Source: Acidobacteriota bacterium (GTDB lineage Bacteria; Acidobacteriota; Blastocatellia; Pyrinomonadales; Pyrinomonadaceae). Taken from it: a DNA stretch of 50,180 nucleotides. Both the position numbers and the translations under genes were made by a program. Of this stretch, positions 443 to 45,614 are shown one piece after another. The notes below the pieces were generated by a model that ran no database searches, was not told the origin of the DNA, and saw only the letters and a program-made list of their open reading frames with translations. Each line of letters starts with the position of its first letter. The first letter of the stretch is position 1. The stretch is from assembly GCA_003222945.1 (NCBI GenBank), contig QHXM01000093.1, forward strand, positions 1 to 50,180. Reading direction: 5' to 3'.

Positions 443-523
443 AGGGATGAGGGCGGGGGGATGAGGGATGAAGTAAAAAGCTGTCGTTCGCTTTTCATCC
501 CTCATCCTTCCGCCCTCATCCCT
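443..523. repeat. Heptad-unit intergenic hairpin (H1)
   Basis: The left arm (443-471) and right arm (495-523) are inverted copies matching at 27 of 29 bases. The arm is built on a 7-nt unit of the type GGATGAG. The right arm ends within the stop codon of the TPR gene (522-524), and the left arm ends 8 nt before the start of the FHA gene, so the hairpin fills the gap between the two genes. Confidence 0.9.
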
Positions 524-5138: not shown

Positions 5139-5475
5139 AACCTTTTATCCCGTCGTGCAATTCAGGCTGAGTGGGAGAGTGCGCCGCCCCTTACCCGATA
5201 AAAAAGCAGGCTAAGCCGCGCCGCCGTCTCGCGCGAGAAACTGTCGTATTGTAGCGCGAATCCTGAGCGTGCGCCAATAATGCTTTTCGTAGCACAGGGT
5301 CTAATCAATCTTGCATATAAAGATAAATTAAATTTTCACCACAGAGAACACAGAGGGCACAGAGGAAAGCGATTTGAGATAAGAAATTTGAAATCTCAAC
5401 TCCGCCATTTTAAATTTCTAATTCTCCCTCTGTGCCCTCTGTGTTCTCTGTGGTTAATCTCTTCTTTCTTAACGC
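5139..5475. other. Divergent intergenic region
   Basis: This region separates the leftward signalling cluster from a rightward gene. It should carry promoters for both, but I see no convincing consensus pair. The right half is occupied by composite hairpin H3. The ORF running through the hairpin reads HREHRGHRGK-type repeats and is not a real gene. Confidence 0.6.
5338..5454. repeat. Nonad-unit composite hairpin (H3)
   Basis: The left arm (5338-5366) consists of 9-nt units CACAGAGAA, CACAGAGGG, CACAGAGGA. The right arm (5423-5454) is its inverse with one extra C, nearly perfect over 28 bp. The roughly 56-nt loop contains a second inverted pair (AGAAATTT and AAATTTCT), so a small hairpin nests in the large one. 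H18 near 41.7 kb has the same design. Confidence 0.92.
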
Positions 5476-16417: not shown

Positions 16418-16420
16418 AAA

Positions 16421-16483
16421 AGTGATGAGTGATGAGTGATGAGCAAAAACCAAGCTCTTACTCATCATTCATCACTCATCACT
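16421..16483. repeat. Heptad-unit intergenic hairpin (H5)
   Basis: The left arm 16421-16444 (AGTGATG repeated) and right arm 16460-16483 are inverted copies matching at 22 of 24. The arm starts 3 nt after the permease 3 stop and ends 3 nt before the permease 4 ATG. Confidence 0.92.
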
Positions 16484-16486
16484 ATC

Positions 16487-17740: not shown

Positions 17741-17742
17741 AT

Positions 17743-17860
17743 AAGGTCAGTACCACCGCGAGAGCAGGGATGAGGGATGAAGTAAGAGCCGAATGCTCTT
17801 TTCATTCATCCCTCATCCTTCATCCCTTCCATCTCCCGCTTGCAGCAGTTGGTACTGACT
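17743..17860. repeat. Nested hairpin with heptad core (H6)
   Basis: The inner arms are GGATGAG-type heptads (left about 17766-17789, right about 17795-17827), the same unit as H1. An outer inverted pair GGTCAGTACCA (17745-17755) and TGGTACTGACT (17850-17860) encloses it. It lies between convergent permease 4 and YIP1 genes, where it could also act in termination. Confidence 0.88.
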
Positions 17861-17869
17861 TCAAGTCGC

Positions 17870-19894: not shown

Positions 19895-19966
19895 TCCGTG
19901 AAACGACGCTAAACAACGCGAAATGAATTCTAATCCTCTTCACGTTGTTTAGCGTGATTTCGCGGA
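19895..19966. repeat. Nonad-type intergenic hairpin (H8)
   Basis: The left arm 19895-19920 and right arm 19941-19966 match at 22 of 26 as inverted copies, built on CGCGAAA/ACGCTAAAC elements. H9 near 27.7 kb shares the GACGCTAAA unit. It lies between oppD and the oppF remnant. Confidence 0.82.
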
Positions 19967-27730: not shown

Positions 27731-27815
27731 AGACCGCGAAAGACGCTAAAGACGCTAAAGAAAAAAGAGAATTGCCATATTCTCTCTTCAACTCTTTCGC
27801 GTATTTCGCGGTCTA
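27731..27815. repeat. Nonad-unit intergenic hairpin (H9)
   Basis: The left arm 27731-27752 and right arm 27793-27814 match at 20 of 22 as inverted copies. The left arm continues as GACGCTAAA repeats of 9 nt. It fills the convergent gap between the methyltransferase and the protease, and the protease stop codon (27813-27815) lies in the right arm. Confidence 0.88.
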
Positions 27816-41665: not shown

Positions 41666-41676
41666 AAGCAATTTTC

Positions 41677-41789
41677 AACACAGAGGACACAGAGGGAAGA
41701 TTTAGAAATCTTAAATCCGCTATCTCTAATTTCTAGTCTGCTATTTTCACTCTCTATAAATTCTCTGTGCCCTCTGTGTCCTCTGTGGT
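41677..41789. repeat. Nonad-unit composite hairpin (H18)
   Basis: Perfect 18-bp inverted core: CACAGAGGACACAGAGGG at 41679-41696 and its complement at 41770-41787. The roughly 73-nt loop contains a second inverted pair TAGAAAT/ATTTCTA. The architecture and unit are those of H3. It lies in the convergent gap between the HAD gene and mutL. Confidence 0.92.
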
Positions 41790-41829
41790 AAACCTATTTC
41801 ATTTATCAGTGTCAGTCCCAGAGTAATAA

Positions 41830-45523: not shown

Positions 45524-45533
45524 CTTTTTTTTG

Positions 45534-45614
45534 AGTTATGAGTTATGAGTTCTGAATTTTGAATTAAAAGCCTTCCGCCCTTAACTCAAAATTCAAAACT
45601 CATAACTCATAATT
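45534..45614. repeat. Heptad-unit hairpin between the DapA-like gene and bshC (H20)
   Basis: The left arm 45534-45567 (GAGTTAT, GAGTTCT, GAATTTT) and right arm 45581-45614 match at 31 of 34 as inverted copies. The right arm contains the DapA-like stop codon (45600-45602) and the codons for its last residues NYEL. Confidence 0.93.

Follow-up and report, generated by a model that had tools for sequence, protein, structure and literature searches.

Three hairpins in the window (the whole 50,180-nt stretch of DNA that was analysed), designated H3, H18, and H6, are probably composite, non-autonomous, mobile intergenic elements, in which one hairpin became nested in the loop of another and the composite was then copied as a unit. 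What was directly observed is the nesting itself, hosts with and without an occupant, junctions that recur among composites, nearly identical composites at sites that are not linked, a bias in genomic position, and no target-site duplications. An earlier note had interpreted the nesting as sequential insertion; the nesting is real and an order of shell before core is readable, but a few events, duplicated since, account for most of the nested copies.

Genome sample and hairpin survey

The source genome, probably of a member of the Blastocatellia (Acidobacteriota) to judge by the 65-79% DNA identity of its syntenic genes to those in named Blastocatellia and group-4 Acidobacteria records, is a 4.74-Mb draft, of which stretches totalling 1.10 Mb were sampled, and 60 relatives were compared, including G004 and G031 (same family), G038 (same class), and G001 (same genus). 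In 611 kb of the source genome 171 hairpins were found, versus 2 in a first-order Markov control. Arms were periodic at 9 nt in 24 of them and at 7 nt in 101, the latter being tandem 7-nt units in intergenic DNA as in heptameric simple-sequence repeats (SSRs); the density of the CACAGAG family is inflated in this count because the stretches were picked around CACAGAG sites. The 1.10-Mb sample held 292 hairpins. The 9-nt repeat CACAGAGRNCACAGAG matched the window eight times at two or fewer mismatches (0.16 expected) and had 95 sites in the source genome, versus 0 for the reversed control. Arms, folds, and this genome-wide excess together bear out the nested hairpins that had been described at H3, H18, and H6.

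A nonamer shell with a heptamer core

H3 (5335-5457) and H18 (41674-41792) represent one element, in which a shell of 9-nt repeats (TTNACCACAGAGGNCACAGAGG ... mirror) surrounds an AT-rich core with 7-nt periodicity. Their parts are as follows.

5335..5365, strand not given: H3 left shell arm, TTCACC(ACAGAGAAC)(ACAGAGGGC)ACAGAGG, 9-nt repeats
5366..5426, strand not given: H3 core, AT-rich, 7-nt-periodic decayed hairpin of AAATCTG type, with an inner AGAAATTTGAAAT/ATTTTAAATTTCT helix
5427..5457, strand not given: H3 right shell arm
41674..41696, strand not given: H18 left shell arm, TTCAACACAGAGGACACAGAGGG
41697..41769, strand not given: H18 core, AAATCTG type as in H3, plus one unpaired right-hand shell unit
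41770..41792, strand not given: H18 right shell arm

The H3 arms, 31 nt each and 97% complementary, are separated by 61 nt, and the RNA fold (-70.3 kcal/mol, z -13.1, equalled by none of the shuffles) pairs AGAAATTTGAAAT with ATTTTAAATTTCT inside the loop. H18 folds with a z of -5.8 and has an AGAAAT/ATTTCT pair inside. This pair, which the earlier note had seen in both loops, is present but forms part of something larger: since the core has a period of 7 nt and its consensus folds into a long helix, the pair is what is left of a longer palindrome of heptamer type, set within a nonamer hairpin.

Complete sequences were readable for 50 CACAGAG elements in the source genome, which share a shell of TTNACCACAGAGG, one or two more nonamers, and the mirror copy. 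The AAATCTG type made up 37 of their cores and the TTATGAG type 9, the remaining 4 being short or of another kind; one more TTATGAG-in-shell site, the tenth, came to light later. Autocorrelation of the AAATCTG core reached 0.45 at 7 nt and 0.44 at 14 nt, versus 0.33-0.34 at 6, 8, and 9 nt, and its majority consensus forms an 18-bp helix. Single AAATCTG cores are largely decayed (mean z -1.2; z < -2 in 9 of 38), and RNAalifold returned no structure for 38 aligned cores because they are decayed and their orientation is ambiguous.

Hairpins of 9-10-nt units (CGCGAAAGA/CGCTAAAGA and CGCAGAG) with the ACC...GGT ends of the CACAGAG shell were observed in the window (27731-27814, 19895-19966) and at L072:9759, and may be sister shells. 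At another locus (L296, G004:C149:2900-4200) the two CACAGAG shell halves are separated by 800 nt that contain, as judged by eye, a transposase-like frame, which may be an insertion sequence that entered the loop of a shell.

The 22-nt outer shell half TTAACCACAGAGGACACAGAGG occurred exactly in at least 112 genome stretches, which came from one archaeal bin and a wide range of bacterial phyla and suggest that a non-coding element has spread horizontally. A mirror partner was nearby at 34 of 83 such sites (L148-L227), and at L202, L224, and L176 among these stretches the loops held further hairpins. A literature search on the CACAGAG repeat returned unrelated papers only.

A second host family with empty and occupied loops

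H6 is a clean nest, with a GGGATGA hairpin inside a GTCAGTACCRCCTGC hairpin whose loop is usually empty and 9-13 nt long. The earlier description of an inner hairpin within an outer pair held: GGTCAGTACCACC / TTGGTACTGACTT at 17745-17862 encloses the GGGATGA hairpin (z -7.7). The parts of H6 and two stand-alone hairpins of nesting families are listed here.

17745..17765, strand not given: H6 outer element (GTCAGTACC family), left part, GGTCAGTACCACCGCGAGAGC
17766..17827 (about), strand not given: H6 inner element, a heptamer hairpin of the GGGATGA family lying within the GTCAGTACC element
17828..17862, strand not given: H6 outer element, right part, ...CCCGCTTGCAGCAGTTGGTACTGACTTC
443..523, strand not given: GGGATGA heptamer hairpin standing alone, of the same family as the inner hairpin of H6
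45529..45612, strand not given: stand-alone TTATGAG heptamer hairpin, the family elsewhere inside CACAGAG shells

The family of the outer pair (GTCAGTACCRCCTGCGGTAGCGGGYGGGT, a short loop, and the mirror) had 76 half sites in the source genome and was present in 26 of the 60 relatives. In the relative G015 the GTCAGTACC element is strongly amplified (284 half sites versus 71 in the source genome when both are counted with one search pattern). Thirteen two-ended GTCAGTACC elements were found in the 1.10 Mb, nine of them unoccupied at 50-73 nt and four with a central hairpin, namely GGGATGA (H6, L109), GATGAACGCTGAAC (L037), and AAGGCAAAAGG (L123). The order of the H6 nest is thus readable, as the host is empty at many sites and its loop holds at least three hairpin families (GGGATGA, AAGGCAAAAGG, and GATGAACGCTGAAC).

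If 250 other hairpins were scattered randomly over the 151 kb of non-coding DNA, 0.26 occupied loops would be expected, giving a roughly estimated P of about 1.5e-4 for four or more, an enrichment that depends on few events and on taking the loop alone as target. With the whole element as target, 1.5 would be expected (P = 0.07), yet all four occupants are central. Further GTCAGTACC nests were L287, L367, L368, L380, and L384 in the source genome and, among the relatives, L369 and L370 (AAGGCAA) and L377, where a GGGAGCGC-type hairpin lies within a longer insert. The element at L377 (G038:C70) is 367 nt long, and its GGGAGCGCTGGC hairpin resembles the RAYT-linked repeat described below.

Order of shell and core

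The diagnostic 19-mer of the AAATCTG core had five exact sites in the source genome, all in shells, and was absent from all 60 relatives; outside shells, the tandem form occurred once in the 1.10-Mb sample, within a coding region. The TTATGAG core stands alone at about 15 places in the source genome, including 45529-45612 of the window. Shells in G004, G031, and G038 have short loops, mostly of 12-33 nt, without a core. The best reading of these comparisons is that in H3 and H18 the shell came first and the core later, after which the composite was copied, because the shells of relatives are mostly empty, the AAATCTG core is confined to the source genome and to the inside of shells, and the TTATGAG core also occurs by itself. 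Loss of the core in relatives, rather than gain in the source genome, is a less likely alternative that would require more events. The AAATCTG core, which is absent from other shells and today never found alone, may itself once have been an independent insert.

Shell and core could also have arisen together as one long palindrome, with H3 and H18 as ordinary copies of a single composite unit. For this speak the 37 of 50 CACAGAG elements in the source genome with an AAATCTG core found nowhere else, and the core consensus, which continues the palindrome; the uniform structure that the earlier note would have taken against sequential insertion is therefore nearly what H3 and H18 show within their own genome. 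We consider such a joint origin unlikely, since it is already largely refuted by the empty shells (16 of 17 in the relatives lack the core). Moreover, shells of the source genome also hold the TTATGAG core, one G031 shell (L304) has a AAGGTAAAAG heptamer hairpin in place of the core, the period is 9 in the shell and 7 in the core, and the H6 host is demonstrably empty elsewhere.

Single and nested versions, whose genome-wide comparison had been proposed as a way to order the types, were both recovered as empty shells in relatives and as empty GTCAGTACC elements and lone TTATGAG hairpins in the source genome, while the AAATCTG core was never alone. The proposed relative age order holds for a given pair of events at one locus but not for whole unit types, because nested copies are mostly not independent insertions but were copied as composites, and because AAGGCAA entered the GTCAGTACC host family independently in another genus (L369, L370). 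Core decay is unfit as a clock, as the inner core of H3 and H18 is more decayed than the older shell.

Position in the genome and possible RNA role

According to gene calls from a simple codon-usage script, 11 of the 292 hairpins lay inside called genes. The share of gaps with a hairpin was 55% between convergent, 38% between codirectional, and 27% between divergent genes, and the median distance past the upstream stop was 9 nt, so that these hairpins, like heptamer SSRs, lie near stop codons and are scarce between divergent genes.

The recurrence of hairpins in orthologous gaps had seemed striking by eye; with a size filter it amounted to 46 of 104 versus 12 of 66 cells (gap-level P 0.03), and for gaps of 50-300 nt P was 0.13; this enrichment is suggestive and weak after control for gap size. 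The same gaps in relatives often carry a post-stop hairpin with a different heptamer in each genome (window 16418-16486 and 17741-17869; L088-L107, L315-L334).

The hairpins might instead be RNA structures under selection, acting as bidirectional terminators or mRNA 3'-end stabilisers, with nesting as an accident of turnover. Their sites just past stop codons and the bias toward convergent gaps would fit such a role, as would the CAGAATA elements, which end in A-runs and T-runs in 13 and 11 of 23 cases versus a background of about 6%. Nevertheless, selection of this kind appears improbable as the explanation: H3 lies between divergent genes, T-runs of at least four follow only 4 of 34 CACAGAG elements, a terminator scan flagged neither H3 nor H6, the recurrence in orthologous gaps is weak under gap-size control, and purifying selection on insertions would also yield the position bias. 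An intrinsic terminator with a GC-rich stem and a U-tract is unsupported for the CACAGAG family, given the few T-runs and the lack of a scan flag, and the CAGAATA family partly fits it.

Copying of composites as whole units

Composites are copied whole as single units, as is evident from junctions shared between loci and from near-identical composites at unlinked sites. GGGATGA-in-GTCAGTACC has at least three junction types, the first common to three loci (L109, L367, L368), the second (GCGAGAGCAGGGATGA) to four (H6, L063:1776, L145:1194, L287), and the third at L384. TTTTCAG-in-CAGAATA has one junction at four loci (L067, L116, L143, L053) in both orientations, and TTATGAG-in-CACAGAG occurs at about 10 loci, likewise in both orientations, with 78-95% alignment across shell and core. 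The composites at two unlinked sites (L046:8743 and L071:4015) match at 100% across 115 bp and lie in unrelated flanking sequence, and the likeness between CACAGAG copies covers shell and core and ends about 5-8 nt outside. The shared junctions indicate few insertion events and many copies. None of the relatives is similar enough in DNA (about 70-80% identity for same-genus G001) to reveal empty orthologous sites at H3, H18, or H6.

Arm identity was 91-95% within elements versus 82-93% between elements. In G038, L307 and L308 are near-identical CACAGAG copies with shared flanks that differ by exactly one nonamer per arm, as though the two arms had expanded jointly. The better match within elements and this gain in both arms suggest that the arms of an element are copied from, or corrected against, each other, and slippage in place clearly contributes, because unit numbers in the arms vary freely. 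That the hairpins are not mobile at all and arise in place, by replication slippage and template switching in tolerant non-coding DNA, as 7- or 9-nt arrays with their mirrors, would agree with arms made or corrected from each other, with the differing unit numbers and the paired gain in L307/L308, and with unrelated heptamers in many of the same gaps of relatives, but is the least probable of the alternatives, since slippage cannot time and again yield loops, cores, and junctions that agree between unlinked sites, the identical 115-bp pair among them, or the exact 22-nt shell half across phyla.

Target sites, candidate enzymes, and a proposed mechanism

Flanking direct repeats were no longer than in shuffled pairings for the heptamer families (P 0.77 pooled) or the GTCAGTACC family, and beyond TTNAC those of CACAGAG elements measured 3.18 versus 2.94 nt, too small a difference for a target-site duplication. 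Terminal inverted repeats, short length, non-coding sequence, and multiple copies, as in miniature inverted-repeat elements (MITEs), were all present.

A match to a REP-associated tyrosine transposase (RAYT; NF047646, nt 71-664 of L043) scored 82.6 bits versus a cut-off of 80, and the gene has GCTGGGAGCGCAGGC hairpins at its flanks instead of CACAGAG or heptamer hairpins; RAYT was therefore rejected as mobiliser of H3 and H18. In L043 (G000:C105, 30-790) GCTGGGAGCGCAGGCGGCTCGCCTGC hairpins lie on both sides of the NF047646 gene; this repeat has 19 half sites in the sample, and gene and repeat are apparently a genuine RAYT/REPIN pair. Around two further loci with a Y1 transposase, none of these hairpin families was found within the 2-3 kb examined, and at the loci covered no transposase could be linked to hairpins of H3, H18, or H6 type. 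The short GTAG-tagged palindrome is absent from H3 and H18. Within the GTCAGTACC element, GGTAGCGGGYGGG/CCCRCCCGCTACC would fit a GTAG REP core, and linkage of the element to a RAYT was not found.

For mobile composites of this kind we propose that a host hairpin (the CACAGAG nonamer shell or the GTCAGTACC element) would take another hairpin into its loop, the cargo usually being a hairpin with arms of 7-nt tandem repeats. The two-layer element would then be copied to new intergenic sites as a unit, in either orientation and without target-site duplication, presumably by transposition-like copying through a single-stranded or hairpin intermediate, for which loops of existing hairpins may be a preferred target besides intergenic DNA. 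Copies would settle mostly a few nucleotides past stop codons, where they would be tolerated and could act as mRNA 3'-end stem-loops, and after landing the two arms may evolve in concert, gaining units in both, by slippage and arm-to-arm correction.

Significance and comparison with known systems

Tandem heptamers are among the commonest prokaryotic intergenic repeats. Nested composites that are copied whole mean that heptamer arrays can travel as hairpin units and not only grow by slippage, so that mobile hairpins may be one form in which the common 7-base tandem repeats of bacteria spread. It is conceivable, if rather doubtful, that bacterial heptamer arrays in general are arms of mobile hairpins that prefer the loops of other hairpins through single-stranded loop targeting, with both arms changing unit number together and each lineage building its own library of nested hairpins. 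Empty and occupied hosts provide natural before-and-after pairs in one genome, so that the insertion mechanism is directly testable.

Heptameric SSRs close to stop codons have been described in Xanthomonas and Nostoc (Rehm et al. 2015; PMC4692102); those of Xanthomonas sometimes form inverted pairs and sometimes occupy the corresponding gap in two species, where their sequence varies (PMC4692102). Heptamer arrays are also formed by the TAACTGA repeats of Beggiatoaceae (MacGregor 2015; PMC4679880), and the SPADE survey reported intergenic heptamer arrays across prokaryotes with no clear clue to function (PMC6344855); all three papers left mobility and function open. The hairpins described here share the 7-nt tandem units, the intergenic position near stop codons, and the scarcity between divergent genes, but within a single genome they comprise many unrelated heptamers arranged as inverted-pair hairpins, which sit inside other hairpins and are copied together with loops and hosts. 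REP/REPIN sequences mobilised by RAYT are short palindromes downstream of coding regions (PMC3116915, PMC2817692, PMC3733652). Dispersed short palindromes after coding regions and the lack of coding capacity are common to both, whereas H3 and H18 have no GTAG-tagged palindrome and have 7- or 9-nt tandem arms, and the genome's own RAYT stands beside another hairpin family.

Like MITEs, the elements have terminal inverted repeats, measure 60-160 nt, are non-coding, and are dispersed in both orientations; unlike MITEs, they have no target-site duplication, a variable unit number in the terminal arms, and no matching transposase that could be found. The small dispersed repeats (SDRs) of cyanobacteria, described by Elhai and co-workers in 2008, are reportedly mobile and nested, 21-27 nt long, and located within tandem heptamer arrays. 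By that description, they resemble the present elements in being very small and mobile, in their nested insertions, and in their link to tandem heptamers, but SDRs are said to sit in heptamer arrays, whereas here the heptamer hairpins are the cargo inserted in larger hairpins. The composites thus fit the general description of such repeats and depart from MITEs in target-site duplication and from REP sequences in RAYT linkage; REP-, MITE-, and heptamer-SSR-like repeats are already known, and what is new here is the hairpin-in-hairpin composite.
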